Shown: piece after piece, positions 11,430 to 43,010 of the stretch
Position numbering within the stretch: the first letter of the stretch is position 1
Layout: every line of letters begins with the position of its first letter
Origin: Promethearchaeota archaeon Loki_b32
GTDB lineage: Archaea > Asgardarchaeota > Lokiarchaeia > Sigyniarchaeales > SOKP01
Direction: 5' to 3'
DNA length: 64,000 nucleotides
Assembly (NCBI GenBank): GCA_005223125.1
Contig: NJBH01000003.1
Span: forward strand, 124,001 to 188,000
Notes under the pieces: generated by a model
Told to the model about the DNA's origin: nothing
The model's database searches: none
Seen by the model: the letters and a program-made list of their open reading frames with translations, nothing else
Translations under genes and position numbers: made by a program

Positions 11430-11644
11430 TTAAAGAAATGAAATTATAATTTAAATAATAAATATCATTTTTTTTTATATTTTACTAAAATAAAATTCCC
11501 TCTTAATTGTATTTTTTTTACTTCTTTAAATAAATTTGACAACATTTTTGTCTAGAAATAATCAAAAGGTTAGCTTTATAAAAAATGAGATAGAATTATA
11601 TTTATCAAATATAAAATAATGAACAATCACCAGAGTAAACAATT

Positions 11645-12535
11645 ATGATTGTAGATATAATGAATATGTTATTTAATGGCACCTTAACTGGTGCTGTATA
11701 TGCATTAATTGCTATGGGATACTCCTTAGTCTATGGTGTAGGAGGTATCATGAATTTATCTCATGGAGCATATTTTATGCTAACAGGGTATTTACTATTA
11801 TGGATGTTACAAACTCCATTTTTCATTGGTCTTGAATGGTTAACTGTTGTTTTTGCTTTAATTATAATAACGGTTATTGGAGGACTTACATTTTTACTCC
11901 TAGTAAAGCCTCTACAGGATTCCCATGTAGCTGTTGTTATTGTTACTTTTGGATTAGCGTTCTTGTTGGAACAAGTAGTATTAATTTCTCCCTCCGGAAC
12001 TGAAGTATGGTCTATTGGTCAATTACGATTGTTCCAAGGATATACGATGGTTTTCGGATATCCTATTGTTCATCAGTATGTTTTTCTCATCGTTATGTCA
12101 ATCGTAATTGTTTTATTATTTGCATTATTCATTAACAAATCCAAACTCGGGAAATCAATTAGAGCAGTCTCACAAGATCGTGAGGCTGCTGGACTTATGG
12201 GGATAAATGCTAGTAGAATTCTCTTATATACTGTTATGATTTCAGCACTTCTAGCAGGTTTAGCTGCTTTTCTGTATTTGCCAGGAGCTTCATTAGATGG
12301 CCCTTCTATGGGTTGGGGATATTTACTAAATTCATTTGCAGTTGTGATTCTAGGAGGGATGGGTAGTCTCATAGGAAGTGTAGCTGGAGCATTCATTGTT
12401 GGTTATACGATCAGTTTCACTAATGTCTTCGTTCCTTACGGTCCATCTTGGGCTCATTTGGTACCAATAATAATTATAATTGTAATACTTTTAATAAGAC
12501 CTCAAGGGTTATTTGGAAAGAAAGAACTTAGGTAA
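11645..12535 (+). CDS. livH: Branched-chain amino acid type ABC permease LivH
   Basis: Membrane permease of the Liv importer, 296 residues with about eight helices, the usual size. GIMNLSHGAYFMLTGYLLL near the N-terminus and the cytoplasmic SQDREAAGLMGIN loop (which docks the ATPase) are hallmark features of LivH; the C-terminal GGMGSLIGSVAGAF and LIRPQGLFGKKE ends are also typical. It lies 20 bases upstream of livM. The 215-base gap before it contains an AT-rich stretch with a TTTATAAAAAAT box around 11577, which may be an internal promoter. Confidence 0.92.
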   Translation: MIVDIMNMLFNGTLTGAVYALIAMGYSLVYGVGGIMNLSHGAYFMLTGYLLLWMLQTPFFIGLEWLTVVFALIIITVIGGLTFLLLVKPLQDSHVAVVIVTFGLAFLLEQVVLISPSGTEVWSIGQLRLFQGYTMVFGYPIVHQYVFLIVMSIVIVLLFALFINKSKLGKSIRAVSQDREAAGLMGINASRILLYTVMISALLAGLAAFLYLPGASLDGPSMGWGYLLNSFAVVILGGMGSLIGSVAGAFIVGYTISFTNVFVPYGPSWAHLVPIIIIIVILLIRPQGLFGKKELR

Positions 12536-12555
12536 TAGATGAAAATATTAATGAG

Positions 12556-13623
12556 ATGTATATAAAAATGTTAAATTTAAAAATAGTAAAGGAAAAAATG
12601 AATGAATTTCCAAGTTACTTAAAGTCTTGGGTTAAAACTTTCACTGGAAGCTTAACGATATTTTGTTTACTCATTCTTTTTGTCATGCCGTTTCTTTCTG
12701 CTAATCAAAGTTTTACACATGTGTTCCTGCGCCAATTTTCTCTTGCAATGATATTTGCAATTTTTGCCGCAAGTTGGGATCTTCTAACCGGCATCTCTGG
12801 ACAAATAAGTTTTGGGCATGCAATATTTTTTGGAATATCAGGATATATTTGTGCTTACTTAATTAAATATCAATCCTTCCCGATATGGATATCAATAATT
12901 ATTAGTACAGTTGTGGCAGTATTTTTTGGTTTAGCGATAGGATTTCCATTATTAAGGCTAAAAGGTCCATATCTAGCATTAGGAACTCTCGCAATGAGCT
13001 TAATTTTATTAAAATTATTTTTAATGGGTTCATTAGCAGATTGGCTTTTTGGTTCAGAAGGGATATCAGCGCTTCCGGGTTTGGCTGCAACCCCAGTGAT
13101 AGAATATTTTATATTATTTATTTTTATGATACTTACATTTGTAATTTTAATTCAAATATCAAAATCTAAATTTGGTACAATTCTAAAATCTATTAGAGAT
13201 GACGAGGTAGGATCTGATGCATCAGGAATTAATACAACTAAATATAAAATTTATGCTTTCATGTTAAGTTCTTTCTTCGCGGGACTTGCAGGTGGTTTCT
13301 ATGCTTTGTACATTGGAGCTGTAAATCCTACAGGAAATTTTGGTACCGTCCTTTCATTTTTCGCAATTCTAATGGCATCCTTAGGTGGATTAGCAACAAT
13401 TTCTGGAGCAGCTTTAGGAGCATTTTTCTTTATCTTTCTTGAATATGCCCTTATTGAGATTGGAGTTGTTGAGATTGGTAATCTTGCAATTGATTTTGGT
13501 CTTTACAAATTTGCAATATTCGCAGTAATTTTAATTGTTATTATTCGGTTTGCTGAGCATGGTATACTAAAACCATTGTTGGAACGTTTAAAAGATCTAT
13601 GGGATTTGTTGTTAGGAAGATAA
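12556..13623 (+). CDS. livM: Branched-chain amino acid type ABC permease LivM
   Basis: Second permease of the importer, 355 residues. The family signature GISGQISFGHAIFFGISGYI follows an N-terminal helix, and the ATPase-docking loop SIRDDEVGSDASGIN is present near residue 215. The last residues are charged and cytoplasmic. It forms a heterodimeric channel with LivH in the cytoplasmic membrane and is cotranscribed with it (20-base gap) and with livG (34-base gap with TAGGTGA upstream of livG). Confidence 0.92.
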   Translation: MYIKMLNLKIVKEKMNEFPSYLKSWVKTFTGSLTIFCLLILFVMPFLSANQSFTHVFLRQFSLAMIFAIFAASWDLLTGISGQISFGHAIFFGISGYICAYLIKYQSFPIWISIIISTVVAVFFGLAIGFPLLRLKGPYLALGTLAMSLILLKLFLMGSLADWLFGSEGISALPGLAATPVIEYFILFIFMILTFVILIQISKSKFGTILKSIRDDEVGSDASGINTTKYKIYAFMLSSFFAGLAGGFYALYIGAVNPTGNFGTVLSFFAILMASLGGLATISGAALGAFFFIFLEYALIEIGVVEIGNLAIDFGLYKFAIFAVILIVIIRFAEHGILKPLLERLKDLWDLLLGR

Positions 13624-13657
13624 AATATATAGGTGACTTTATCAGAGGGATTTAATT

Positions 13658-14398
13658 ATGGGTGTTATTTTAGAAGTTAAAAATTTAACTAAGAAATTTG
13701 GTGGCTTAACGGCTGTCAACGATTTCAGCTTTGAAATCAAACGAGGAGAATTTATAGGGTTAATTGGTCCAAATGGAGCTGGGAAAACCACAGTTTTTAA
13801 TTTAATTAGTGGATTTGAGAAACCAAGCTCTGGAAGAATTAGATTTAATGGAATTGATATTACTGGAATGAAACCTTATAAAATTGTAAATTTAGGAATT
13901 GCGCGGACTTTTCAATTAGTAAGATCGTTTAAATACTTAAGTTTGCTTGATAATATAACAGTATCGTGTCTCTCAAAAAGAGGTAAAGAGGTTTCAAAAA
14001 AAACAGGTACTGATAATTATGCAAGTTCAATTCTTGCTTCAGTTGGTCTTATTGATAAAGCTAGAATACCACCAATCATATTACCTCATGGAGACTTAAG
14101 AAAATTACAGATTGGTAAAGCTGTTGGTACTAATCCAGAATTACTTCTGCTTGATGAACCATTTAGTGGTCTTTCTTTCGAAGAACAATTAGGAATTACT
14201 GATTTGATAAAAAAATTGCATGCTGATGGTGTGACTATTTTTATTACAGGTCATGTTCTTCGTGAACTTATGACATTAGTACCAAGAGTAATAGCAATGC
14301 ATCAAGGTAAATTCATTGCTGATGGACCTCCGGTACAAGTTGCAAATAATAAAATTGTTCTTGAAGCATATTTAGGAAGAGGTGTAAAAATTGCTTGA
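13658..14398 (+). CDS. livG: ABC transporter ATP-binding protein LivG
   Basis: Cytoplasmic ATPase of the Liv importer, 246 residues. Visible motifs are Walker A GPNGAGKTT (near residue 36), Q-loop ARTFQLVR, Walker B ELLLLDEP and the switch histidine in FITGH. The family signature is unusual: the expected LAYGQQRRLEIA-like sequence reads LPHGDLRKLQIGKA, keeping only one glycine. The downstream partner LivF has a canonical signature, so the ATPase pair may be asymmetric. Its stop overlaps the TTG start of livF by eight bases, indicating translational coupling. Confidence 0.9.
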   Translation: MGVILEVKNLTKKFGGLTAVNDFSFEIKRGEFIGLIGPNGAGKTTVFNLISGFEKPSSGRIRFNGIDITGMKPYKIVNLGIARTFQLVRSFKYLSLLDNITVSCLSKRGKEVSKKTGTDNYASSILASVGLIDKARIPPIILPHGDLRKLQIGKAVGTNPELLLLDEPFSGLSFEEQLGITDLIKKLHADGVTIFITGHVLRELMTLVPRVIAMHQGKFIADGPPVQVANNKIVLEAYLGRGVKIA

Positions 14399-15095
14399 AA
14401 TAAAAAAAATTTATCATTACTATGGAAAAGCAAAAGCCCTTGAAGAAATTAGTTTAAAAATTGAGGAAAAGGCTCTCGATGCCGTTATCGGTCCAAATGG
14501 AGCTGGAAAATCTACCCTTCTCAGAGTTATATCTGGTTTAGAAGAACCAGATAGAGGAAAAATCGAATTCCTAGGTGAGAGGATAGATAAATTAAAAGCT
14601 CATAAAATAACAAAAAAAGGAATTTCTCATTGCCCAGAACGCCGTCGGCTGTTTTTTGATATGAGTGTTGCTGATAATCTCAAAATGGGAGCATACCCCG
14701 TAAAAAATAAGGAGGTGTATAAGGCGATGAAAAATTTTGTTTATGAACTATTCCCCCGATTAAACGAGAGACGAAAACAGCGAGCTGGAACACTAAGTGG
14801 TGGGGAGCAACAAATGCTTGCCATAGCACGTGCATTGATGTCAAAACCAAAACTTCTCTTGCTGGATGAACCCTCATTAGGATTAGCTCCAAAAATAAAG
14901 AAAAGAATATTTGACGTAATCGAAAAGATAAAACAAGAAGGTACGACCACCCTACTAGTAGAACAAGATGCAGTTTTAGCAATGGATATTGCTGAAAATA
15001 TTCATCTCCTCGAAGAAGGGAAAATAGAAATGAGAGGAACTAAGAAGGAATTGGAAAAAGAACCTCGAATAAAACAAGTTTATTTAGGAATTTAG
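14391..15095 (+). CDS. livF: ABC transporter ATP-binding protein LivF
   Basis: Second ATPase of the importer, 234 residues, the normal length. It has Walker A GPNGAGKST, a canonical signature LSGGEQQMLAIARAL, Walker B LLLLDEPSLGLAP and the switch histidine replaced in TLLVEQD, as is typical of LivF. The start is a TTG at 14391 lying inside the end of livG; the first residues LEIKKIYHYYGKAKALEE begin the standard LivF N-terminus, so no earlier start is needed. The stop is ten bases before the next ATG. Confidence 0.92.
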   Translation: MLEIKKIYHYYGKAKALEEISLKIEEKALDAVIGPNGAGKSTLLRVISGLEEPDRGKIEFLGERIDKLKAHKITKKGISHCPERRRLFFDMSVADNLKMGAYPVKNKEVYKAMKNFVYELFPRLNERRKQRAGTLSGGEQQMLAIARALMSKPKLLLLDEPSLGLAPKIKKRIFDVIEKIKQEGTTTLLVEQDAVLAMDIAENIHLLEEGKIEMRGTKKELEKEPRIKQVYLGI

Positions 15096-31435: not shown

Positions 31436-31984
31436 CTAAGTTTTCTCTGCTTTCGTCTTAGCTTCCTCCTTAATTCTCTCAACTCCCTTCGTAGCTTTCT
31501 CAGCCCTCTTCTTAGCGCCCTCAGCAACCTTCTTAGTTTTCTCTGCTTTCCGCTTAGCTTTCTCAGCTGCCTTCTCAGCTGCCTTCTCAGCTTTCTCAGT
31601 TGCCTTCTCAGCTTTCTCAGCTACCGTCTTAGCTACCTTTTCAGCTTTCTCAGTTTCCTTCTCAATATCCTTACTTTTTTTAACTACTTTCTCAGATACA
31701 TCCTTAGCTTTTATCTCAGCTTTCTCAGCAACCATCCTAGCTTTCTCAGCTACTTTCTCAGCTCTCTCAGCAATCATTTTAGTTTCCTCAGCTGCCTCAG
31801 ATCCTATTCGAGATTTTTTAGCGACTCTTAGTGTTTCCATTTCATATCTCGTATAATCCTCATTTGTTGCCTTCCTTATAGTCTTTACACCACATTTTTC
31901 ACAATATTCTGTTACTGTAGTTGTAAATTCTCCACATTCATCACAGACAAATTTAAATGTCTTTTTAAATGTTTTCATGTCCAA
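31436..31984 (-). CDS. Zinc-ribbon protein with Lys/Ala/Glu-rich helical repeat tail
   Basis: A 182-residue protein. The N-terminus has a zinc ribbon (C14-DEC-17 and C28-EKC-31). From about residue 60 the sequence is a long charged helix of near-repeats AEKAEK, EKAAEK and AKRKAEK, which gives the DNA a run of CTCAGCTTTCTC-like units. Such tails resemble histone H1-like or LEA-like proteins and may bind nucleic acid or form a stalk; this is inference. An alternative start is the ATG two codons later. It stands alone. Confidence 0.7.
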   Translation of the reverse strand: MDMKTFKKTFKFVCDECGEFTTTVTEYCEKCGVKTIRKATNEDYTRYEMETLRVAKKSRIGSEAAEETKMIAERAEKVAEKARMVAEKAEIKAKDVSEKVVKKSKDIEKETEKAEKVAKTVAEKAEKATEKAEKAAEKAAEKAKRKAEKTKKVAEGAKKRAEKATKGVERIKEEAKTKAEKT

Positions 31985-32152: not shown

Positions 32153-32278
32153 TTAATAATCTAATGTCGTATTTTTTAAAGAAACTTTTCTCTTGGATAT
32201 ACGAGGTTTCCACCTTAACAACTTATTATCTGAAAGATATGGGTGTTGGACGAGAACTAAAAAAGAAAATTTAAATTT
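32153..32278 (-). pseudogene. C-terminal relic of a RecA/RadA-like gene
   Basis: The minus strand reads LVLVQHPYLSDNKLLRWKPR, then ISKRKVSLKNTTLDY and TAA. This matches the end of the RecA-like protein at 33607-34374 (YTLVQHPYLPEKGLKKWKPR, then KSKKKVPLKNTTIDYWF). Upstream of the matching part the frame runs into TGA (32279-32281), and there is no start or ATPase core, so only about 35 residues of a duplicated gene survive. Nucleotide identity to the other copy is roughly 70% by eye. The rest of the 31985-32354 gap holds no gene. Confidence 0.75.
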
Positions 32279-32354
32279 TCAGATAATCAACAAATTTAAT
32301 CTATAATTTTTAAAATAAAATTTTAAATTAGACTTATTTTGATATTATTATATT

Positions 32355-33089
32355 ATGGTTGATTTAATCATATTTCTAAATTTTATTGGGATGATCTTTG
32401 AAATTTTTATCATCATTTTTGCTGCGATTTTACTAATACTTATATTAAAAAAGTATTTCATTAAGCGTCATAAACTAACTCGGCTGCTTTTAATAATTTT
32501 CACTTGCTATTTTCTTGCAATTCTCTTTTCTTGGATATCAAAAGTTTTTGTAGTTGTACAATTAAATGTGGTCCAGGATGGATCTATAATTACTTGGATG
32601 TATAATATAATATTAGGCTTTAGATTAAGTGAATTCTTCGTGACGATTGCCATTTTCTTATCTTATATATTAAAAGTAAATGTATTTGAAAAAGGATATA
32701 ATACCTTACAAAGATATATCATAATAATATATGGAATATTCGCATGCGTTTATGTTTTTATTTTCTATGAAGACGGTAATACTTTATTAGATATTATTGC
32801 GTTCTTAATTGTTTTCATATATATGGTTATGGTTTACGCACCCTTTTTACGAAGAGCAATAGAATCTTATCGTGGAGTAGATGTGAAGATTTATAAACAA
32901 GCCTTTTTATCATTAGCAATCATGTCTTTTAGTTTTATATTGATATTTCTCAATTTTGCAATCGACCGAGTATTAATCTTTTTAGGGAGCCCTGGTTTTA
33001 CAGTGTTTTATTTTCTAGCGTGGATTTTTGCTATAGTCGGAATTTTTGGAGCATATTATGGATATATTAGACCAAAATCTATTGAATAA
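32355..33089 (+). CDS. Integral membrane protein with about seven helices
   Basis: A 244-residue protein with seven evident hydrophobic segments and short charged loops (KKYFIKRHKLTRLL after helix 1; RRAIESYRGVDVKIYKQ after helix 5). It ends in a short cytoplasmic tail (GYIRPKSIE). The layout resembles the 7TM sensor modules found in archaeal signalling proteins, but no kinase or other output domain is attached. It is followed after 89 bases by a longin-like protein on the same strand; the pair may act together (inference). Confidence 0.6.
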   Translation: MVDLIIFLNFIGMIFEIFIIIFAAILLILILKKYFIKRHKLTRLLLIIFTCYFLAILFSWISKVFVVVQLNVVQDGSIITWMYNIILGFRLSEFFVTIAIFLSYILKVNVFEKGYNTLQRYIIIIYGIFACVYVFIFYEDGNTLLDIIAFLIVFIYMVMVYAPFLRRAIESYRGVDVKIYKQAFLSLAIMSFSFILIFLNFAIDRVLIFLGSPGFTVFYFLAWIFAIVGIFGAYYGYIRPKSIE

Positions 33090-33178
33090 TAAATATTAAT
33101 TTTTTAAAAATTAAACATTAAATATTTTATATATATTTTTTTTTATTAACTTCATAGTTAATTTAAATATAATAATCT

Positions 33179-33601
33179 GTGATTTCTGTGGAAAAGGTAA
33201 TACAAGATATTTGGATATTAAATGATGCTGGCGCTGTCTTATATCATCGTATTTTTAATAAAAACGTTGATGACCAATTAATTGGTGCATTAATGTCTGC
33301 GTTAAACCTACTAGCGGAAGAATTAGAAAGAGGAGGTTTATCTAATTTCGAGATAAAAGACAAAAAATATATTATCCTGAAACAGCATGGATTATCTTTT
33401 ATTGTAAACTCTTCGAAAAAGACTAAGGAGAAAAAAATTAAAGAGGAAATGAAAAGTATTGTAAATAAATTCTTTAATTTATATCCAAAAGAGATGCTAA
33501 ATAACTGGGATAATGATGTAAGTATTTTTACTGATTTTGAAAAGCATATTAAAGATAGTTTGCAAGATACTATAGATAAATTCGAAAAAGCTTTTTGGTG
33601 A
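33179..33601 (+). CDS. Longin/roadblock-like domain protein
   Basis: A 140-residue protein beginning with GTG at 33179. The opening VIQDIWILNDAGAVLYHR, a long helix (LIGALMSALNLLAEELERGG), then strands (FEIKDKKYIILKQHGLSFIV) and a C-terminal helical region give the beta-beta-alpha-beta order of longin domains, which in eukaryotes occur in SNAREs and adaptor subunits and in Asgard archaea as GTPase-linked proteins. Assignment is by fold pattern only. It is convergent with the RecA-like gene, five bases apart. Confidence 0.6.
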   Translation: MISVEKVIQDIWILNDAGAVLYHRIFNKNVDDQLIGALMSALNLLAEELERGGLSNFEIKDKKYIILKQHGLSFIVNSSKKTKEKKIKEEMKSIVNKFFNLYPKEMLNNWDNDVSIFTDFEKHIKDSLQDTIDKFEKAFW

Positions 33602-33606
33602 TATGC

Positions 33607-34374
33607 TTAAAACCAGTAGTCTATCGTTGTATTCTTTAAAGGAACTTTTTTCTTAGACTTACGGGGTTTCCACTTTTTCAGCCCCTTTTCAGGTAAGTAG
33701 GGATGTTGAACAAGTGTATATTCTACATACCGATCATCATCATTTATCATTACTAGCACGTTTCCAAAATGAGAAAGGATTTTACCTCCTTTTGGTCTGA
33801 ATAGGGAATGCTCATGTAAGGGTGCTGTTATAATAATTAAAGGTTTTGTTTTCTCGAGCATTTGTTTAATTCCATCTATTGCTCGTAGCAGGTCTTCAAA
33901 AGTCTGTTTTTCATAGTTTTCGAACATGGTTGTAATCCCAGAGATTAACACAACTTTCACATCTTCAAGTGTAGAAAGTTTATTCTCCAATATTTCAACT
34001 GTTTGGTCCCAAGTAAAGGCCCTAGAGATCAGGATACTTTCCAAAACTTTCCGAGGAGACAAATTTTGGGAAACCGCAAACTTGCTTACATTATAAGGAT
34101 TAAACCGATTGTTTCCATCTATAAAGGCAACTCTAATACCTTCTCCAAGGCCTCCATTGATAAAAGCTTTCTGAGCAATAACAGCCGTTGTTAATAGAAT
34201 ATTGGTTGTAAGCTTCTTGTCTCCATAGAGCAGATAAACTAAATCTCTGTGAAACCCCCCAGAAAGCAACTCGTCTAGAGTAAGATCCCCACTTGAAACG
34301 AGTGGATAATGACTGTTTCTTTTAAACACCTTAAATCCATCATCATATGAGAGTAACGATTCTTCGAACGTCAT
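33607..34374 (-). CDS. RecA/RadA-like ATPase-fold protein with degenerate Walker motifs
   Basis: From the ATG at 34374 the product is 255 residues (a TTG eleven codons earlier is possible but its extension is not conserved-looking). The order of elements follows RadA/RadB: SSGDLTLDELLSGGFHRDLV before the P-loop, AFIDGNNRFNP, a Walker-B-like strand and a C-terminal FGNVLVMINDDDRYVEY. However, Walker A reads GDKKLTTN (residues 51-58) with no GKT, and Walker B reads VVLISGITTM with Ser for Asp. It should therefore not hydrolyse ATP in the normal way and may be a structural or recombinase-mediator paralogue. A relic of its 3' end lies at 32153-32278. Confidence 0.75.
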   Translation of the reverse strand: MTFEESLLSYDDGFKVFKRNSHYPLVSSGDLTLDELLSGGFHRDLVYLLYGDKKLTTNILLTTAVIAQKAFINGGLGEGIRVAFIDGNNRFNPYNVSKFAVSQNLSPRKVLESILISRAFTWDQTVEILENKLSTLEDVKVVLISGITTMFENYEKQTFEDLLRAIDGIKQMLEKTKPLIIITAPLHEHSLFRPKGGKILSHFGNVLVMINDDDRYVEYTLVQHPYLPEKGLKKWKPRKSKKKVPLKNTTIDYWF

Positions 34375-34716
34375 TATATGGAGTAAGAATTCTTCAAAAT
34401 AAAACAAAGATACACCGACAATTTTCTAAAATACATGCAATTTCTCCATAGTTTAGAAATATCATTTCTATTTTCAAGAAAAAGTGTTCTCTTAAAAGAA
34501 ACATTGTTTCATGGAGACGGAGAGGGGTAATTAAAAGTAAAAATAAAGTATAGAAAATATCTGAATATGGCTTAAGGGCGACAAAATTGATAAAATATTT
34601 TTGATCATATTTGGCAATATGGAGGATAACTAAAATCAAACTTTATAATAAGTGTTACAAAATAATATATTATCATTTTTTTAAATTATAAAAATCAAAA
34701 AAACCAATATATTAAA

Positions 34717-36429
34717 ATGTCATATAAAGATAGGTTTTGGAAGTCAAACTGGGACTCACATATTAAGGATTTGGATCCTAGAGAGTTCAATACTTCTTTT
34801 AACGAAACAATAAGAAGAACTTTTGAGGAACTTCCTGAAAAATTAGCTATTGCTTTTTATGGAACAGAAATTTCATACGGAGAATTGGATAAGCTATCTA
34901 ATGAATTTGCTCATATGCTTATTGAAAATGGAATGAAAAAAGGGGATGTTCTAGGAATAAATGTTGCTAATATTCCTGAATATGTAATTGGAATTTTGGG
35001 AGCAATGAAGGCAGGAGTAATTGTTTCTGGGGTTTCACCTCTTCTCTCAGCTGTTCAGATACAATATCAATTAAATGATTTAGGATCTGGTGGAAAACAA
35101 GTTGCACTTCTCACTTTAGATGCAATATTTGCAGGTCATATTACTAAAATTTATACAAAACTTCCTTCGTTAAAATTAGTCATAACCACAAGTGTGGGTG
35201 GTTTTATGCCAAAAATGTTAGCCAAGCTAGGAAAATTAGTAGGGAAAATCCCAAAAGGAAAAGTAACTCCATTAGAAGGAAAAACTGTCCTTGAATATCA
35301 TAAAGTCGTTAAAGGAAAATATTCTGATGAACTACCTGATGTTAAAATAAGTCCAGATGATATTATATTTATTCAATATACAGGTGGAACAACTGGTCCT
35401 CCAAAAGGGGCAAGGTTGAGTCACAGAAATTTCGTTGCAGATATTAAAATATTCCAACACTGGCTTAGTTGGGAATTTGGAACGGGTTTTGGATTATCAG
35501 GATTTCCATTTTTCCATATAGCAGGCGTATTTACTTGTGCGAATGTGATAATGTTAGGTTGGAGTCAGGTTCTAATCCCAAATCCAAGAGATACTGACCA
35601 TATTATAAAAGAAATGTTAAAATACAGACCCAATGTCTTAGCAAACGTGCCTACATTGTATCAAATGATAATAAAGAATCCTAAATTCAAGAAAATCGAT
35701 AAAGATATGATTAAGTATGCCGTATCTGCCGCTGCTCCTTTTCCAAAAGAATCACAGGAAATATTTGAAGGTGTTATAGGTAAAGGAAAAATAATAGAGT
35801 TATATGGGATGACTGAAACTTCACCATTAACAATAGGTAATCCTTCAAGAGGAACAAAGAAGTTAGGACATGTTGGTTTACCCTTCCCAAATGTAGAATT
35901 TAAATTATTAGATCCTGATACTGGTAAAGAAGTACCTTTAGGGGAACCTGGAGAAATCTGCATTAAAGGCCCAATGGTTATGGAAGGTTATCATAATAAA
36001 CCAGAAGAAACGAAAAAAGCTATTGATTCTGATGGGTTCATGCATTCTGGAGATGTTGGAATAATGGATGAAGAAGGCTATGTAAGAATCGCCGATCGAA
36101 CTAAAGATATGATTATCGTTGGAGGTTTTAAAGTATTCTCTGCAAAATTAGAAGATACTTTAACCAAGCATCCAGCTATTGAGATGATAGCCACTATCGG
36201 CGTCCCTAACCCAGATAGACCCGGCTCGGAAATTGTAAAAGCTTTTATCCAAATAGCTCCAGATTATGAATTCGATGGAGACAAGGAAGCATTAAAAGAA
36301 AATATAACGGCATTTGCTAAAGAAAAGTGTTCACCTTACGAAGTACCAAAAATAATTGAATTTACAGAAGAATTGCCACTTACAGTAGTTGGCAAGGTAG
36401 ATAAGAAAGTTTTACGAAAGAGTGAGTAG
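34717..36429 (+). CDS. AMP-forming acyl-CoA synthetase
   Basis: A 570-residue ANL-superfamily ligase that activates a carboxylic acid as acyl-AMP and then acyl-CoA. Motifs are the phosphate loop YTGGTTGPPKGARL at residue 221, ELYGMTETSPLTIG, HSGDVGIMDEEGYVRIADR and the catalytic lysine in VVGKVDKKVL. It is a paralogue of 16651-18348, with about 40 extra residues around the KLVGKIPKGKVTPLEG insertion. The gap upstream (34408-34716) holds no convincing gene. A flavodoxin follows after 214 bases with its own TATA-like element. Confidence 0.9.
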   Translation: MSYKDRFWKSNWDSHIKDLDPREFNTSFNETIRRTFEELPEKLAIAFYGTEISYGELDKLSNEFAHMLIENGMKKGDVLGINVANIPEYVIGILGAMKAGVIVSGVSPLLSAVQIQYQLNDLGSGGKQVALLTLDAIFAGHITKIYTKLPSLKLVITTSVGGFMPKMLAKLGKLVGKIPKGKVTPLEGKTVLEYHKVVKGKYSDELPDVKISPDDIIFIQYTGGTTGPPKGARLSHRNFVADIKIFQHWLSWEFGTGFGLSGFPFFHIAGVFTCANVIMLGWSQVLIPNPRDTDHIIKEMLKYRPNVLANVPTLYQMIIKNPKFKKIDKDMIKYAVSAAAPFPKESQEIFEGVIGKGKIIELYGMTETSPLTIGNPSRGTKKLGHVGLPFPNVEFKLLDPDTGKEVPLGEPGEICIKGPMVMEGYHNKPEETKKAIDSDGFMHSGDVGIMDEEGYVRIADRTKDMIIVGGFKVFSAKLEDTLTKHPAIEMIATIGVPNPDRPGSEIVKAFIQIAPDYEFDGDKEALKENITAFAKEKCSPYEVPKIIEFTEELPLTVVGKVDKKVLRKSE

Positions 36430-36594
36430 AATTAATTAAAATTTTATTTCAACTTAATTTTTTTATTTTTCTTATTTTTTATTTTCATTAATATAATGAT
36501 ATGTATTCTACAATAAATGTGTTTAGGATATTGTAATTAGGTTTGATGAAAGATTGGACTATTGAAATTTCAAATAGAATTTTATTTTCCCAAT

Positions 36595-36611
36595 CCTATA
36601 AATAAATATAT
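36595..36611 (+). promoter_or_regulatory. TATA box of the flavodoxin gene
   Basis: CCTATAAATAAATATA lies about 35 bases upstream of the ATG at 36644, matching archaeal promoter spacing; GAGGT immediately before the ATG provides a ribosome binding site. The remaining bases 36430-36594 show no gene. Confidence 0.4.
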
Positions 36612-36643
36612 TTCTAATTTAATTATGATTTGAGGTTATAACC

Positions 36644-37105
36644 ATGAAAAAGATTTGGATAATTCATAACTCTATGCATGGAAATTCTGAGAAGATTTCA
36701 CAACAACTTGCTGAAGGTTTAAAAGATAGTTATGATGTAAGTGTAGATAGTATTAAAAACATATCACCTGAAGATATAGCTAAAGATGAGCCTTATGGCT
36801 TGATCATTGCTGTTCGAATCGTCGCTTTTGGGTCAGATAAAGAGATTCGAAAGTTTACCAATAATTTAGATAAAGCCATAACTAAACCAATTTCGAAAGT
36901 CGCCTATTTTTCTACCCATGCATTGGGTTGGAAAAAATTCTTTATAAAGGGAATGAAAAAGACTCTTGAGAAAATTGGATGTGTTGAAGAAGTCTGTCCT
37001 GAATATCTTGAAGTAAAAATGCAGGGGCCTGAAGGACCAGCTGTAGAAGGGGCCGATGCGAAAATTGAAAATTTTATTTCTACATTAAAGGAATTTATGA
37101 AATAA
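36644..37105 (+). CDS. Flavodoxin-domain protein
   Basis: A 153-residue flavodoxin-like protein. The FMN phosphate loop is SMHGNSEKISQQL after strand 1 (KKIWIIHN); strand 3 YGLIIAVRIVAFGS and strand 4 KVAYFSTHALGW follow. It is close in length to short-chain flavodoxins and would carry electrons in the cytoplasm. The C-terminal half (CVEEVCPEYLEVKMQGPEG) matches archaeal flavodoxin-like proteins. It is followed by the fragment of a 4Fe-4S protein on the opposite strand. Confidence 0.8.
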   Translation: MKKIWIIHNSMHGNSEKISQQLAEGLKDSYDVSVDSIKNISPEDIAKDEPYGLIIAVRIVAFGSDKEIRKFTNNLDKAITKPISKVAYFSTHALGWKKFFIKGMKKTLEKIGCVEEVCPEYLEVKMQGPEGPAVEGADAKIENFISTLKEFMK

Positions 37106-37148
37106 AATAACTAACAATAGTTTTATGAGTTTTATAATTAAAATTTTT

Positions 37149-37418
37149 TTAATTCCTACTTTTTAAAATTTTCTCATGTAAAATCTGAAAATCTTTTTCA
37201 GGTATTTTATTTCTTAAATCCTCTCTTAAAACAATTTTAATTGCATCATTAGAACACTTAGAAACACATACGCCACATCCTATACACCAGTTATTATCAA
37301 TTTGAGCAATTTCATTTTCTAAGTTTACCGCATCTACTGGACATATTTCAATACAATTACCACAACCTACACACTTATCATTTAATGTCTCACATATTAA
37401 ATCGTTTCGGTTTTGTTT
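37149..37418 (-). pseudogene. C-terminal half of a split 4Fe-4S ferredoxin-domain protein
   Basis: Open minus-strand frame encoding two ferredoxin clusters: CVGCGNCIEICPVDAV and CIGCGVCVSKCSNDAI, ending PEKDFQILHEKILKSRN. There is no ATG, GTG or TTG in frame between the upstream stop (37419-37421) and the first cluster, so it cannot be translated as it stands. Its missing N-terminal half lies about 0.9 kb away at 38309-38452, beyond a gene on the other strand. The break coincides with the 29-bp direct repeat. Confidence 0.75.
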
Positions 37419-37422
37419 TTAA
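37394..37422 (+). repeat. 29-bp direct repeat, copy 1
   Basis: A 29-base sequence starting ATATTAAATC and ending GTTTTTAA, identical to 38306-38334, same orientation, 912 bp apart. It sits exactly at the broken 5' end of the ferredoxin fragment. Confidence 0.9.
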
Positions 37423-37545
37423 ATTAATAAAAAGAGAAAGAAAAAGTATAGAAAATTTAAAAGTATAAATAGAAGAATTGGATTAGTATAACTTAATACA
37501 ACTTTATTTAAAGTCCAAAGAAAATTTCATTTGAGAGTGATTGAC

Positions 37546-38226
37546 ATGAAAAAGTTAATGAAAATAACTCTATTTTTATTTTGCACTACTTTATTCTTAT
37601 TTCCCTTTATATTTAGTGCTACATGTACCACTACACAAGGGGATACAACATTTGGTGTAGATGAGGGAGAAACTCTTGTATGGACAGCTACTAGCGGGTC
37701 ACCTGAATTTGTTGGAAATAAGTATAATATAACTATTGAGGACATTTATAATGGAACCTACATGACAGTAGATTCATACTTAATAGATGTTACTATGAGT
37801 GAATACAATAAAACTGCAGATAAATGGTCCATTTGGATTAATGATGACTTTTTTGTCGCAGCTAACGAAACTCAGAATTTCATTGAATATACAGGTACTC
37901 TTTCTGGGGCACCATTATGGTTTATAATCCCTACTCCAATAAATTTAACCATGCTTGGTGAATACCTTGTATCCACAGGATCTTATACAGATTATACTGT
38001 TAGTGGAAACAGAATTGAAATCATGGGTTTTGGAACTTATAAATTAACTTATAATTCAGATGGTATATTGACAAAACATGTAACTGAATTCGTTGGAGTA
38101 GTTATCTTAGTAATGGTATTAGGTGGAGGAGGTAAAGATGCGATACCATATGGTTATTCTTTCCTGATTTTCACCGTAATTGGAACGATGGCACTAATAT
38201 ATCTGGAAAAAAGAAAAACTAAATAA
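37546..38226 (+). CDS. Secreted, C-terminally membrane-anchored protein of unknown function
   Basis: Starting at the ATG at 37546 the product has 226 residues: a signal peptide (MKKLMKITLFLFCTTLFLFP), an extracellular beta-rich domain with Asn-x-Thr/Ser sites (EDIYNGTYMTVDSY and others), and a C-terminal helix (YSFLIFTVIGTMALIYL) followed by EKRKTK. A glycine stretch (LGGGGKDA) precedes the anchor. The TTG at 37531 would add only five residues and weaken the signal peptide. I recognise no function. The gene is the sole content of a 0.9-kb segment bounded by 29-bp direct repeats inside a split 4Fe-4S gene. Confidence 0.7.
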   Translation: MKKLMKITLFLFCTTLFLFPFIFSATCTTTQGDTTFGVDEGETLVWTATSGSPEFVGNKYNITIEDIYNGTYMTVDSYLIDVTMSEYNKTADKWSIWINDDFFVAANETQNFIEYTGTLSGAPLWFIIPTPINLTMLGEYLVSTGSYTDYTVSGNRIEIMGFGTYKLTYNSDGILTKHVTEFVGVVILVMVLGGGGKDAIPYGYSFLIFTVIGTMALIYLEKRKTK

Positions 38227-38305
38227 TTGAGTAAATACTAATTTTTTATCTTTTTATTTCTTTTATTAGACTTCTGAAAGAATAACACCCAGATTTATTT
38301 TTTTT

Positions 38306-38334
38306 ATATTAAATCGTTTCGGTTTTGTTTTTAA
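38306..38334 (+). repeat. 29-bp direct repeat, copy 2
   Basis: Identical to 37394-37422. On the minus strand it forms the end of the N-terminal fragment, coding KNKTETI and its stop. Confidence 0.9.
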
Positions 38335-38452
38335 CTTCTTCCTCGGAGAAGTTTGATTTCAATATTATAAGTAAATCTTCTCTAGGTGGACACATCATCC
38401 CCATTGAGGATAAATGGTCCATAAATTGTTTGTAGATATCTTGTGTCATCAT
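38309..38452 (-). pseudogene. N-terminal half of a split 4Fe-4S protein
   Basis: The minus strand reads MMTQDIYKQFMDHLSSMG, then MMCPPREDLLIILKSNFSEE and EVKNKTETI before TAA (47 residues). This has the pattern of the N-terminal domain of a common 4Fe-4S protein family (VYxxLxxHLxxLGxGYPxxxxLxxxLKxxFTPEE), whose C-terminus is a two-cluster ferredoxin such as the fragment at 37149-37418. The reading frame ends inside the 29-bp repeat. The middle of the gene is absent. Confidence 0.65.
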
Positions 38453-38557
38453 GGGAATTGATTAATTTTATTATATTTATGTGAATGGAGCGATAAGTGC
38501 ATAATTGTTCTTGTCTGTTCTTTGGTTACAATCTTTTGGTTGAATCTATATTTTCAA

Positions 38558-38938
38558 TTATACCTTCCCATTCAATCTCATCGCAAAAGTTTTAAGAAAA
38601 TATAAAGCTTTGGGTGGATCTGCTCGAGGCATGGCATATGATACAAGTACGCCTCCTTGAAAAGGAGCGAATATTACATGTCCCAACCCACTCTCGTTGG
38701 TGCCAACAATTCCTTCAGTAGTAGTTTCAACAACCGAAAATTCTAAATCGTTTAAAACAAATGAGCAGTCTCCTTTAATGACATTCAATATAATGTTCGT
38801 TTGATTGGTTAGATCCCAATTGTCTGTCTGGAAAACCATATTTCCCGAATCAGACACAACTGCGATGCCAGCAATTTTTATGTTAGTCTCTAGCGCAACA
38901 ATTCCCAATTCGTCAATAATCTTTTTTATTTCATCCAT
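38558..38938 (-). CDS. Roadblock/LC7-domain protein
   Basis: A 126-residue protein with the roadblock/LC7 layout: an N-terminal helix (MDEIKKIIDELGIVALET), a beta hairpin (KIAGIAVVSDSGNMVFQTDN), a long helix and then FSVVETTTEGIVGTNESGLG and HVIFAPFQGGVLVSYAMP strands, ending in a helix (ALYFLKTFAMRLNGKV). In Asgard archaea such proteins are abundant and are thought to regulate small GTPases, one of which lies at 43298-43854. Single minus-strand gene. Confidence 0.75.
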   Translation of the reverse strand: MDEIKKIIDELGIVALETNIKIAGIAVVSDSGNMVFQTDNWDLTNQTNIILNVIKGDCSFVLNDLEFSVVETTTEGIVGTNESGLGHVIFAPFQGGVLVSYAMPRADPPKALYFLKTFAMRLNGKV

Positions 38939-39050
38939 ATTAAGTATTCATAAGGTTTATTGTTTTTAGATATTATTTTTACTTTTTACTCTTAAATTTT
39001 TCTTATTTTGCTCTTTTTTTGTTATTCAACTTTCATCGAAAAATTGCTTC

Positions 39051-39512
39051 TTAACTTAATTTTACGATTTCTATCTTTGAGTATTTCAACAAATCTGCTT
39101 TTACGATATTTTCCATATTATAACCTTCTTTATAGATTAATCGCTTAATTTTTGCGTTGATAATTAGTTTTAAACAGCTCATACAAGGAAATGTTGTAGT
39201 ATAAAGAGAAGTATTACCTTCAATTGTCGTTCCATGGAGTGCTACTTGAATAATACAATTAATTTCAGCATGAACACCCCTACACAATTCTGGTTTTTCA
39301 CCAGGATTAAGATGTTTCCGAACACATGTATCTGGAGTACAATGTGGTAATCCTGTTGGGGCACCATTATACCCTGTTGACAAAATATGGTTATCTTTAA
39401 CAAGTACAGCTCCAACATTCCTACTTATACAAGTTGATCTCATTGAGATCACTTCAGCTATCTTCATAAAATAGTTATCTTTTGAAATTCTTTGATTAGT
39501 GGACGTATTCAT
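39051..39512 (-). CDS. dCMP deaminase family protein
   Basis: Zinc-dependent deamination of dCMP to dUMP, supplying dTTP synthesis. The 153-residue protein has the zinc site GVHAEINCI (H81, catalytic E83) and FPCMSCLK (C110, C113), plus the RSTCISRNVGAVLVKD and STGYNGAPTGLPHC segments that bind the nucleotide in dCMP deaminases. It is followed after 37 bases by the sirtuin gene upstream on the same strand, so the two are probably cotranscribed from the sirtuin side. Confidence 0.9.
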   Translation of the reverse strand: MNTSTNQRISKDNYFMKIAEVISMRSTCISRNVGAVLVKDNHILSTGYNGAPTGLPHCTPDTCVRKHLNPGEKPELCRGVHAEINCIIQVALHGTTIEGNTSLYTTTFPCMSCLKLIINAKIKRLIYKEGYNMENIVKADLLKYSKIEIVKLS

Positions 39513-39549
39513 TTCTTATATTCACTCTAAACATAATTTTAAAAAAATT

Positions 39550-40332
39550 TTATTGCTTATTTTTATTAATTTTTTCTTCAACAATAGAAACTACTTTTGG
39601 AAGTACGTCTCCAATTTTATCATGAATAACGACTTCAGCTGCTGAATCCATATCAGTCTCCTGAATATTTATAATAGCTAATTTTGCGCCAATTGATAAT
39701 ACTTTTTGAGGATAGAACGCAACAGGGTAAACCACAAGGGAAGATCCAAGGACAAGAAATAAATCGCACTTAGCAATCATTTGATCTGCGGCTTCGAGTG
39801 TTGTAGACTCAAGTGGTTCCCCGAAAAATATAGCGTTTGGTTTTAGCATTCCTCTACATTTTTCACAAGATGGCGAATAATTCCCTTTCATAACTTGATT
39901 AACCATAAATGTTATTTCATAAATTTGGCCACAAGTCATACATTTTGCTTCATAAGCATTTCCATGAAATTCTACGATGTTTTTAGTCTTTGCTTTATGA
40001 TGTAATCTATCAATATTTTGAGTAAGAACTCCTTTTAATTTGCCAAGTCTTTGAAGTTTAGTCAAGGCTTTATGACCTTTGTTTGGTCGTGCTTTAAAAA
40101 TTGCCTTTCCTGTTTCTAACATAAATTCCAAATTTTTAGCAGGATTTCCTACGTACGAATGAATCGAGGCAAATTCATAAGGATCTACCTTTTCCCACAA
40201 TCCTACACCTGGTGAACGAAAATCTGAGATTCCACTTTCTGTACTCATGCCAGCTCCTGTTAATGCTACTATATTGTTAGAGTCAACGATTAATTCCGCT
40301 AATTTTTCAACTTTTTCTTCTAATGACTCCAT
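39550..40332 (-). CDS. Sir2-family NAD-dependent protein deacylase (sirtuin)
   Basis: A 260-residue class III-like sirtuin. Motifs: GAGMSTESGISDFRSPG (residues 26-42, NAD binding), TQNIDRLH, the catalytic His in VEFHG (H123), zinc cysteines C131/C134 and C156/C159, and VLGSSLVVYP. It removes acyl groups from lysines, using NAD. The ATG at 40332 is well supported. Two partial copies of its 5' region lie just upstream (40422-40484 and 42063-42097), part of a duplicated segment. Confidence 0.92.
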   Translation of the reverse strand: MESLEEKVEKLAELIVDSNNIVALTGAGMSTESGISDFRSPGVGLWEKVDPYEFASIHSYVGNPAKNLEFMLETGKAIFKARPNKGHKALTKLQRLGKLKGVLTQNIDRLHHKAKTKNIVEFHGNAYEAKCMTCGQIYEITFMVNQVMKGNYSPSCEKCRGMLKPNAIFFGEPLESTTLEAADQMIAKCDLFLVLGSSLVVYPVAFYPQKVLSIGAKLAIINIQETDMDSAAEVVIHDKIGDVLPKVVSIVEEKINKNKQ

Positions 40333-40424
40333 TTTGTAATATTTCTGATTTTATTAATAAAATATTTTATTGTCTTATGATTTTATTGTATTAATGCTTA
40401 CAGAAGAATTTAAACAAATTAAAT
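40298..40424 (+). repeat. Duplicated sirtuin/crotonase divergent 5' region, copy A
   Basis: This stretch contains the first codons of the sirtuin (minus), a divergent promoter region, and the first 12 codons of the crotonase (plus, MLTEEFKQIKS at 40394 on). It matches 42063-42219 at high identity, apart from about 33 extra bases in the latter. The crotonase part ends abruptly at 40424, where sirtuin-like sequence begins. Confidence 0.8.
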
Positions 40425-40484
40425 CGATGCGAATTCATACGGATCTACTTTTTCCCATAAGCTTGTTCTTGGAGTTCGAAAATT
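40422..40484 (-). pseudogene. Sirtuin fragment
   Basis: The minus strand reads FRTPRTSLWEKVDPYEFASI, matching residues 38-57 of the sirtuin next door (FRSPGVGLWEKVDPYEFASI). No flanking sirtuin sequence continues to the right. The junction with the truncated crotonase start at 40422-40424 looks like a tandem-duplication breakpoint. Confidence 0.8.
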
Positions 40485-40528
40485 TTTATACACAATAGAA
40501 AATATTTATGAATTCTTTTAACTGTTTT

Positions 40529-40648
40529 CTAATATATGAGTCTATCTTTTATCTCTTTACCCTTTTTATTCAAAAGTTTCAAAAATAAGTGGTGCTTCCT
40601 CCTTAAACTATTAATGAAATCTACCAAATCATCATTTTTGATTTTCAT
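40529..40648 (-). CDS. Possible small basic protein (39 aa)
   Basis: A minus-strand ATG frame giving MKIKNDDLVDFINSLRRKHH, then LFLKLLNKKGKEIKDRLIY. Codon content looks coding, but there is no recognised family and it could be a gene remnant. It lies in the 40485-40736 gap between the sirtuin fragment and the LRR gene; nothing else is visible there. Confidence 0.3.
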   Translation of the reverse strand: MKIKNDDLVDFINSLRRKHHLFLKLLNKKGKEIKDRLIY

Positions 40649-40736
40649 CAACTGCTTGTAAACTCTACTACATAATAGGTTTTTAAAAACTCCATAACCG
40701 ATATTATTTAAATATACAGTTAATTATATTAAAAAT

Positions 40737-42002
40737 GTGAAGGAATTTAAAATAAATGATTACTTGACACTAAGACTTCAAGACTATAGAACATTTATTT
40801 ATATAGCTGGAAAAAAGTTTAGACAATGTAAGTTCTTACTTCTTAATATTCCCGCAGACGAGATAAAGTTATTGGATGAGGTTCAATCTATTGACGAGGC
40901 TACTGAAAGGTTAAATAATTCTTTAGAGAGAGATGATCAGACTAAAATTACTATTGACTCAAAAACGGAGTTTTGGGCACATTGTTCTAACTTACAAGTA
41001 TGGTATGAACATAATTATGACACACGGTTGCTCCATAGCAATTTAGCATTCCCCTTACTGCACGCTCTTACTAAAGCTGGTGATCCGATTGCGAAAAAAG
41101 TCTTTAAAGAAGAAATTGCAAAGCGTATTAGCTCAGGTAATGAAAAAATAATAGAGTTCTTGGTGAATGAGCGCTATATCGACTTTCTGGAAAGGGAACA
41201 ATATTTGATGTCATTATTAAATCCAGCCGAAGCAGAAATTTTAATTAAACTTGAAAAATTTACGGACCAACAATTTACACAAATTGGAAGGCGAAAATAT
41301 TTCGATAGTGGAGTGGAAGAATACATCTATCCTCAATTTATGGCAAGAAATAAATCTGTATCAGCATTACTGATTTATTGGTATAATAAACCTCCTAAAC
41401 CTCTCCCAGAATGGATATGCAATCTAAAAAACCTTGAAATCTTTCACTATTTCGGAGATAATATACCTTCACTACCAAAACATTTTAGTAAACTAAAAAA
41501 TTTAAAAGAATTGGCAGTAGATAGTGAGATTTTAGAGAAAATATCCAGCTCAATTACACAACTTCCTCACCTAGAAGAACTATATATAAAAAGCGGGCTT
41601 TTAAAGACAATTCCAGAAAATATTGGAGATTTAAAAAAATTGAAAATCTTTTCTGTTGGAAATATGCTAACTACTCTTCCCGAATCTATAACAAAATTGA
41701 AAGAACTTGAATATCTTTATATAAATCATAATCGGTTATGTCAGTTACCAGAATCTCTTTATTCTCTTAAAAGCCTAAAAGAATTAAACATAAAGAATAA
41801 TTCTATTGAAGAAATATCAGAATCGATCAGTGAACTAAAAAACCTTGAAGTATTTATTATAAAAAAAAATAAAATAAGAACCCTACCAGAGTCGTTGTTA
41901 CAACTTAAAAAACTAAGAATTTTATTTATTGATAACGAAATAATAGAAAAAAATAAAGATATTATAAAAAAATTAGAAACTAATGGTGTAATGATATCTT
42001 AA
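40737..42002 (+). CDS. Leucine-rich-repeat protein with Asgard-type N-terminal domain
   Basis: A 421-residue protein starting with GTG. Residues 1-180 form a domain I associate with expanded Lokiarchaeal LRR families (YLTLRLQDYRTFIYIAGKKF, NIPADEI, WAHCSNLQVWYEHNYDTR, LLHSNLAFPLLHAL). Residues about 215-405 hold eight LRRs of about 23 residues with cores such as LPEWICNLKNLEIF, IPENIGDLKKLKIF, LPESITKLKELEYL and LPESLLQLKKLRIL. LRRs of this LPxxIxxLxxL type bind other proteins; in Asgards they often accompany small GTPases. The gene lies between two copies of a duplicated sirtuin/crotonase region, so it was probably inserted there. Confidence 0.85.
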   Translation: MKEFKINDYLTLRLQDYRTFIYIAGKKFRQCKFLLLNIPADEIKLLDEVQSIDEATERLNNSLERDDQTKITIDSKTEFWAHCSNLQVWYEHNYDTRLLHSNLAFPLLHALTKAGDPIAKKVFKEEIAKRISSGNEKIIEFLVNERYIDFLEREQYLMSLLNPAEAEILIKLEKFTDQQFTQIGRRKYFDSGVEEYIYPQFMARNKSVSALLIYWYNKPPKPLPEWICNLKNLEIFHYFGDNIPSLPKHFSKLKNLKELAVDSEILEKISSSITQLPHLEELYIKSGLLKTIPENIGDLKKLKIFSVGNMLTTLPESITKLKELEYLYINHNRLCQLPESLYSLKSLKELNIKNNSIEEISESISELKNLEVFIIKKNKIRTLPESLLQLKKLRILFIDNEIIEKNKDIIKKLETNGVMIS

Positions 42003-42097
42003 TTCTTTATAGGAATTATTGTCTTTTTCCTCCTAATAGCAGATCTAAGATGTCTCTCATAAGCTAATTGTTCAATTTTCTCTTCAAATGATTTCAT
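41999..42097 (-). pseudogene. 5' relic of a second sirtuin copy
   Basis: The minus-strand frame starts MKSFEEKIEQLAYERHLRSA; the first 12 residues match the sirtuin start (MESLEEKVEKLA), then similarity is lost and the frame ends at 41999-42001, overlapping the LRR stop. It is the remainder of the second sirtuin copy in the duplicated segment. Confidence 0.65.
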
Positions 42098-42219
42098 ATG
42101 TTAATATTTCTGATTTTATAAGTTAAAAAAGTATTACGATTATATTACCTTATAAAATATTTTATTGTTTTATGATTTTAATGTATTAATGCTTGTAGAA
42201 GAATTTAAACAAATAAAAT
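42063..42219 (+). repeat. Duplicated sirtuin/crotonase divergent 5' region, copy B
   Basis: Counterpart of 40298-40424. It keeps the intact start of the crotonase gene and only a decayed sirtuin 5' end; the shared TAAAATATTTTATTGT-type promoter stretch begins about 42152. Confidence 0.8.
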
Positions 42220-43010
42220 ATGAAAAAGAAGAAAACGGAATTTTAACGGTTACCCTAAATTGGCCCGAAAAAAAAAATGCTCTTTCACCATTAGGTCTTT
42301 TAGAGCTCTGGTATGCAGTTGAGCATGCCGATAAGGATAAACAAGTTAAAGTTATGATATTAACAGGGTGTGAGGAAGCAGGAGCTTTTTCTTCAGGAGG
42401 GTATTTTTCAGATGAAATATTGAAAGATATACCTGAAAAGTACAGGACAGAAGTTAATTTAAGAGACATGGCATCAAAAAAGTTGTGCCTTAAGTTTTGG
42501 GATTTTTCAAAACCTTTAATATCTGTGATTAACGGTTTTGCTGTGGGTGGTGGATTTACACTTCCTGTGATTTGCTCAGATTTGGTCTATATGGCTGAAG
42601 ACGCATGGTGGGCATTATATTTTGTAAAAAGAGCGGTTATGCCTGATTTTGCTACTACAGTTCTTTTACCTTTAATGATAGGTTTGAACAGAGCTAAAGA
42701 ACTGTTCTATTTTGGCGACCGGATGACTGCCCAAGAAGCAGAAAGATTAGGTCTCATTAATAAAGTATTGCCCAAAGAGAAATTAATGCCTTATGCGAGA
42801 AATCAAGCCTTAAGACTTATTCCCCCCAAGGGTCCATCACTTTCAATTAAATTAATGAAAAAAACCATGCATACATATTTCAGGGATATAATAGAAAAAC
42901 AACTAGATTTAGAAAATAAAATGTGGACCAAGGCAATTCGAAGTAAAGATTTTGGAGAATCTTTAAAAGCTTTAAAGGAAAAAAGGGATCCAACTTTTCT
43001 GGGAAGGTAA
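42189..43010 (+). CDS. Enoyl-CoA hydratase/isomerase (crotonase) family protein
   Basis: A 273-residue crotonase-fold protein from the ATG at 42189 (an in-frame TTG at 42165 lies in the duplicated promoter region). Oxyanion-hole segments are EEAGAFSSGGYFSDE and GFAVGGGFTLPVICSDL. The catalytic-Glu region reads LYFVKRAVMPDFATT and lacks the classical Glu. LGLINKVLPKEKL and the end KEKRDPTFLGR are family-typical. The protein probably acts on a CoA thioester but not as a standard hydratase. Confidence 0.88.
   Translation: MLVEEFKQIKYEKEENGILTVTLNWPEKKNALSPLGLLELWYAVEHADKDKQVKVMILTGCEEAGAFSSGGYFSDEILKDIPEKYRTEVNLRDMASKKLCLKFWDFSKPLISVINGFAVGGGFTLPVICSDLVYMAEDAWWALYFVKRAVMPDFATTVLLPLMIGLNRAKELFYFGDRMTAQEAERLGLINKVLPKEKLMPYARNQALRLIPPKGPSLSIKLMKKTMHTYFRDIIEKQLDLENKMWTKAIRSKDFGESLKALKEKRDPTFLGR

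Follow-up and report, generated by a model that had tools for sequence, protein, structure and literature searches.

How do genes come to stand between direct repeats that are pieces of their neighbours? The question is raised by three sites, here called C1, C2 and C3, that lie in a 10-kb part of the window, a 64,000-nt stretch of the Lokiarchaeia genome G000 (G000:C24:124001-188000). An earlier note had described direct repeats and gene fragments at all three and had read them as captured cassettes of different ages. The repeats proved real at each site (Table 1), and a difference in age is supported, but the three sites have three different histories: the LRR gene of C3 lies in an old sir2 remnant, and in many relatives the gene pair of C1 has long adjoined the ATPase gene. 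In our reading, the repeats are probably scars left when genes were gained from related strains through homologous recombination on one side only. Syntenic relatives, all Lokiarchaeia metagenome-assembled genomes (MAGs), were picked through a search for a proteasome subunit, and genome-wide scans of G000 covered a sample of 1.19 Mb, taken in stretches and making up about 29% of the genome.

Table 1. Features of the three repeat-bounded sites (positions in the window).
Site	Feature	Position	Strand	Basis
C1	Displaced 3′ end of resident ATPase gene, up to the stop codon	32155..32257	-	
C1	Cargo: 7TM protein, 244 aa	32355..33089	+	
C1	Cargo: longin-domain protein (Fuz_longin_1)	33179..33601	+	PF19036
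C1	Anchor gene, RadA/Rad51-like ATPase, intact	33607..34407	-	Pfam PF08423; allele test
C2	C-terminal Fe-S remnant, residues 284-366 of 366 aa	37153..37401	-	
C2	Left direct repeat	37394..37425	.	
C2	Insert	37430..38228	+	Homologous to G014:C38 (91%)
C2	Secreted anchored protein in insert	37546-38226		
C2	Right direct repeat, 31/32 nt identical to left	38306..38337	.	
C2	N-terminal remnant of same Fe-S gene, residues 1-41	38331..38453	-	
C3	sir2, intact	39550..40332	-	PF02146
C3	Left repeat: intact sir2 start, divergent promoter, first 18 codons of ECH	40298..40424	.	
C3	Inner fragment of second sir2 copy, codons 37-57, directly after left repeat	40422..40483	-	
C3	LRR protein, 421 aa, within remnant of second sir2 copy	40737..42002	+	Pfam LRR
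C3	Right repeat: first ~12 codons of second sir2 copy, promoter, intact ECH start	42063..42219	.	
C3	Enoyl-CoA hydratase (ECH), intact	42165..43010	+	PF00378

At C1, the last 103 nt of the ATPase gene recur over their full length at 69% identity, and this fragment and the intact gene enclose the 7TM and longin genes. The fragment shares 88%, 85% and 83% identity with the ATPase alleles of G002, G004 and G005, compared with the 69% to the gene in its own genome, and the intact 3′ end shares 84%, 83% and 81% with those of G011, G013 and G015. The fragment sides with G005 and G004, in which the 7TM-longin pair is not beside the ATPase gene, and the intact 3′ end sides with the pair carriers G011, G013 and G015. 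A sister relationship of the two copies is rejected (p-AU 0.004; 0.008 and 0.007 after rows for G002 were added). At diagnostic sites within the repeat, the ratio of carrier-type to resident-type states is 13:2 in the intact copy and 1:17 in the fragment. Between nt ~225 and 694 the intact gene is for the most part resident-like, and from nt 705 on, over about the last 100 nt, it is carrier-like; the switch of allele type at nt 694-705 coincides with the start of the fragment and of the 103-nt repeat at nt 699.

Comparison with the genomes of relatives recovered empty or single-copy versions of both C1 and C3. At C1, G005, G014 and G017 have a single ATPase 3′ end and no 7TM-longin pair. The order 7TM-longin-ATPase without the fragment occurs in G007, G010, G011, G012, G013 and G018. 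The arrangement in the window is shared by the independently assembled G002 and is therefore not an assembly artefact. G002 also provides evidence against our reading, since its intact ATPase gene ends in a 3′ sequence of the fragment's type; this calls for a later conversion or some other history. A test of an older duplication at C1, with G004, G005, G014 and G017 as one clade, was borderline (p 0.054). Another recombinant of the same two haplotypes is found in G001, in the order B-7TM-longin-B′-AlaRich-ATPase, where the B side resembles G011 and the B′ side G005, and the tail of gene B measures 43 nt. Beside C1, the window also encodes an alanine/lysine-rich coiled protein built from imperfect 21-nt repeats and carrying a Zn ribbon at its N terminus (31436-31984), whose placement relative to the 7TM-longin pair varies among relatives.

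An LRR gene between the uL2 and TFB-like genes on another contig of the same genome (L064, G000:C4, 11912-15502) is likewise accompanied by a displaced uL2 tail. The intact uL2 3′ end is 94%, 93% and 92% identical to those of G011, G002 and G014, and the fragment is 77% identical to that intact end and finds its best match in G001 (84%). A sister relationship of the two copies is again rejected (p-AU 0.034), and the site is empty in six relatives. At both C1 and uL2, the two copies are thus different alleles.

This bears directly on the possibility that the repeats arose by duplication of the target upon insertion. Such duplication agrees with the single copy found at empty sites, with the short, near-identical, non-coding and sharp-ended repeats at C2 and at three loci described below (L162, L182 and L073), and with a further locus, L180, where the fragment resembles the intact copy more than it resembles any relative. 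Plain target duplication is, however, rejected at C1 and uL2 by the AU tests: at C1, the copies fall with different relatives, and the repeats are for that reason two alleles rather than a duplicated target. In addition, five of the nine 3′-end repeats found in the genome scan stop within about 2 nt of the stop codon, as random duplication would not. We regard target duplication as an unlikely source of the repeats overall.

The preferred alternative, one-sided recombination, would proceed as follows. DNA from a relative would bring in the same conserved gene followed by other genes; it would recombine homologously within the conserved gene and be joined illegitimately to resident DNA at its other end. 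The product would be a hybrid intact gene, then the new gene or genes, then the resident 3′ end as a fragment that ends at the stop codon. A homologous joint of this kind, inside a conserved anchor gene, is placed at nt 694-705 in the ATPase gene and near the start of the repeat in uL2, although uL2 is an allele mosaic that, ahead of the repeat, matches the resident and donor references less distinctly. At two other loci, L070 and L183, the similarity of the intact gene to relatives also jumps at the repeat boundary, while for the fragments of L180 and L066 the allele test does not separate donor from resident. The switch at the boundary suggests repair of a chromosome break with one homologous and one end-joined side, which could have started from a break in the resident chromosome (one-sided invasion with end joining) or from the incoming end, as in the homology-facilitated illegitimate recombination (HFIR) of bacteria. 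Repeats that end at stop codons, a serial array of tails described below, and empty sites and carrier-type arrangements in relatives all support one-sided recombination; the shortness of the fragments (40-130 nt) speaks against it. A possible overlap of 2-3 nt was seen at joints (CC in G001, AAT in C3); an illegitimate joint of HFIR would have 3-10 bp of microhomology.

The earlier note had suggested small circles that integrate through short homology, and circularised DNA entering by one crossover would indeed give the same anatomy. Circle integration is the usual outcome for non-replicative DNA with one homologous end conjugated into E. coli, where it leaves duplications of 109-950 bp (PMC3240628). 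A crossover should, however, fall at random inside the repeat and leave both copies mosaic, whereas at C1 the switch lies at the repeat's edge and the fragment is resident-type throughout (17 sites to 1). Small circles are accordingly not favoured, and we consider them improbable.

C3 has a different structure. Its two repeats align in two blocks, at 82% and 93% identity, and to the description in the earlier note we add the inner sir2 fragment that directly follows the left repeat. In G001, G004, G010, G011, G015 and G018 the site is single-copy, with sir2 and ECH back to back and sharing one promoter, and none of the relatives compared has an LRR gene there. C3 reads best as a partial duplication of sir2-ECH in which the displaced remnant holds the LRR gene. 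A stretch that runs from sir2 codon 57 to ECH codon 18 would have been copied and joined into an older, LRR-bearing sir2 remnant, which fits one-sided recombination; AAT is common to both sides of the joint. Since sir2 is mosaic throughout, donor and resident are not separable at this site. C3 could also be read as a plain tandem duplication of ~280 bp over the same tract, whose second copy holds the LRR gene, followed by decay and involving no gene capture. Extended to the other loci, tandem duplication leaves unexplained why the cargo is absent from empty-site relatives and why the allele types differ, and as a general account it is highly unlikely. In the same gene block of G001 (L042, G001:C321, 5280-6320), a sir2 3′-end tail lies behind the gene for a 226-aa secreted anchored protein, and this is a further event of the kind seen at these sites.

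At C2, the insert is flanked by only the two ends of a 366-aa Fe-S protein. G011, G001 and G015 have this protein whole; about 240 of its residues are also missing here. The secreted gene in the insert has a 91% identical counterpart in G014 in a different context, and the repeat sequence has no match elsewhere among the loci examined. C2 is a recent insertion into a decayed Fe-S gene whose middle part was by then gone. A short target duplication would account for its 32-nt repeat; one-sided recombination fits C2 less well, and no anchor gene was recognised there. Genes between near-identical non-coding direct repeats of 40-57 bp, resembling C2, were also seen at L182 (10194-10830), L162 (10060-11879) and L073 (2284-3483); either short target duplications or copied promoters may explain these. 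Next to C2, a small minus-strand roadblock/longin-like gene (38558-38938) takes the place of the second acyl-CoA synthetase gene of relatives, and is found in other placement, at 88-91% DNA identity, in several relatives, including G007 and, from another genus, G024.

Recurrence across the genome was assessed in two ways. Self-comparison of the 1.19-Mb sample returned 42 direct and 2 inverted short repeat pairs spaced 250-5000 bp apart, an excess of direct pairs that is more than chance, although paralogues and repeat proteins account for some of the pairs. When 935 gene 3′ ends were scanned under stricter rules, nine genes proved to have a second copy of their 3′ coding end downstream, on the same strand and outside an ORF, and no inverted downstream copies were found. 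In five of the nine, the copy ends no more than ~2 nt from the stop codon: uL2, a 113-aa protein gene X, a metallo-beta-lactamase-like gene, a Ras-like GTPase gene and the C1 ATPase gene, the last counted here after gapped alignment. In a GH57 gene the copy ends 9 nt past the stop codon. Cargo at these loci includes LRR, GNAT, glyoxalase, MGS-like, beta-lactamase-like, MarR and DUF1846 proteins. The bias toward 3′ ends may reflect selection, as 3′ fragments would be silent and 5′ fragments would be expressed, so that tails would survive.

Behind gene X (10308-10649 of L066, G000:C6; family not assigned), four inserts with X tails between them extend over 10308-14500. The tails are 40-128 nt long, each runs up to the stop codon, and each lies between different genes. 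In G001, G002, G007, G011 and G013 the site holds other cargo and other tails; by sequence reading, this cargo comprises a VapBC-like pair, F420-type oxidoreductases and membrane proteins. G011 has one extra insert between X and a 98-aa cassette common to G000 and G002. The array is serial, with the youngest insert nearest X. In G007 (L049, G007:C19, 6189-7440), a deaminase 3′-end tail of 82 nt (87%) lies past an inserted gene for a 136-aa membrane protein. In the Harpocratesius genome G030 (L257, 7480-13448), a 118-nt copy of an SNF2 helicase 3′ end (98%) lies 2.5 kb downstream; the similarity ends 10 nt short of the stop codon, which may mean that the final codons of the gene were exchanged.

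Tandem accretion as in this array, a preference for 3′ ends and restoration of the gene are also what a tyrosine recombinase would give if it acted in trans and site-specifically at gene 3′ ends, the cassettes being non-autonomous elements. Against this, the repeat sequence differs at every locus with no constant core, the fragments range from 37 to 304 nt, and the cargo contains no integrase (array ORFs were read and part of them scanned). The three tyrosine-recombinase hits in G000 all lie on contigs other than that of the window and none is near, and we think this explanation very improbable. The absence of transposases and integrases noted earlier is borne out: no Pfam domain of either kind was found in the proteins of C1-C3 or in the cargo tested elsewhere. 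A transposon or IS element was rejected because the cassette ends lack inverted repeats and the cassette proteins lack a transposase domain. Archaeal integrons, in which Asgard MAGs are enriched, form single-gene arrays with repeats between the genes (PMC9668308), but an integron seems unlikely here too, as no attC-like sequence common to the repeats was seen, each repeat derives from the gene next to it, and no IntI lies nearby.

The same scan of 3′ ends gave 9/935 for G000, 1/160 for G004, 1/226 for Harpocratesius, 0/142 for three other genomes of the order, 0/278 for other archaea and 2/242 for E. coli, one of the latter at an IS-like repeat; the difference between G000 and the controls does not establish an excess over other prokaryotes. 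The idea in the earlier note that small segments are gained recurrently through homology to neighbouring genes is supported, the pattern recurring at nine genes in 1.19 Mb. In E. coli K-12 (NC_000913.3), the kdpE 3′ end is copied as the pseudogene ybfI past the speF-potE operon (L329, 16720-21733). As at the Lokiarchaeia loci, this 145-bp copy (90%) runs to the stop codon behind an inserted operon, but it stands in a bacterium and is a single instance in the 300 kb scanned.

HFIR is known from S. pneumoniae, Acinetobacter and P. stutzeri, and HFIR and its circularisation variant yield such products in bacteria (PMC3240628). The Lokiarchaeia loci share with it one homologous anchor, one illegitimate joint, a kilobase-sized foreign insert and the lack of a mobile-element enzyme. 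In the laboratory, HFIR usually deletes resident DNA, whereas at both C1 and uL2 the anchor gene's resident 3′ end is kept as a second copy, in an uncultured archaeon known by sequence alone. Serial displacement has been described for T6SS immunity arrays of Vibrio and orphan 3′ ends of Rhs genes, with HFIR proposed (PMC5361080); there too, insertions accumulate on the 3′ side of one gene and leave a row of displaced remnants, but the anchors here are housekeeping genes (uL2, ATPase, GH57) and the 113-aa protein gene, and the cargo is not toxin-immunity. Insertion with long target duplication in H. pylori (Nobusato et al. 2000, as cited in PMC2869330) is similar, as far as that citing account describes it, in placing genes between long direct repeats that are single-copy in the empty allele (C1, C3 and uL2 here), and differs in that the copies at C1 and uL2 are distinct alleles instead of a duplicated target. 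In Arabidopsis, moved genes also lie between genic direct repeats, with LRR genes a frequent cargo, but the transposition is intragenomic, in a eukaryote, and a circle model was proposed for it (PMC2869330). Among the papers covered by a literature search, none combined Lokiarchaeota, direct repeats, horizontal gene transfer and insertion.

The pattern appears to show a scar of DNA uptake from related strains and not a mobile system of a new type; such a mechanism is already known in bacteria, and it is the host that is new and interesting. We give very little credence to an active, host-encoded capture in Lokiarchaeia, in which conserved genes would be cut near the 3′ end and cassettes carrying a restoring 3′ end inserted; if true, it would build integron-like arrays such as that behind the 113-aa protein gene. 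How Asgard archaea acquired such a mixed set of genes is a central, still open problem in the study of eukaryote origins. For each gene gain, the scars give direction (resident versus donor allele), order (serial arrays) and sometimes the carrier lineage, and gene flow in Lokiarchaeia thereby becomes traceable event by event from sequence alone.
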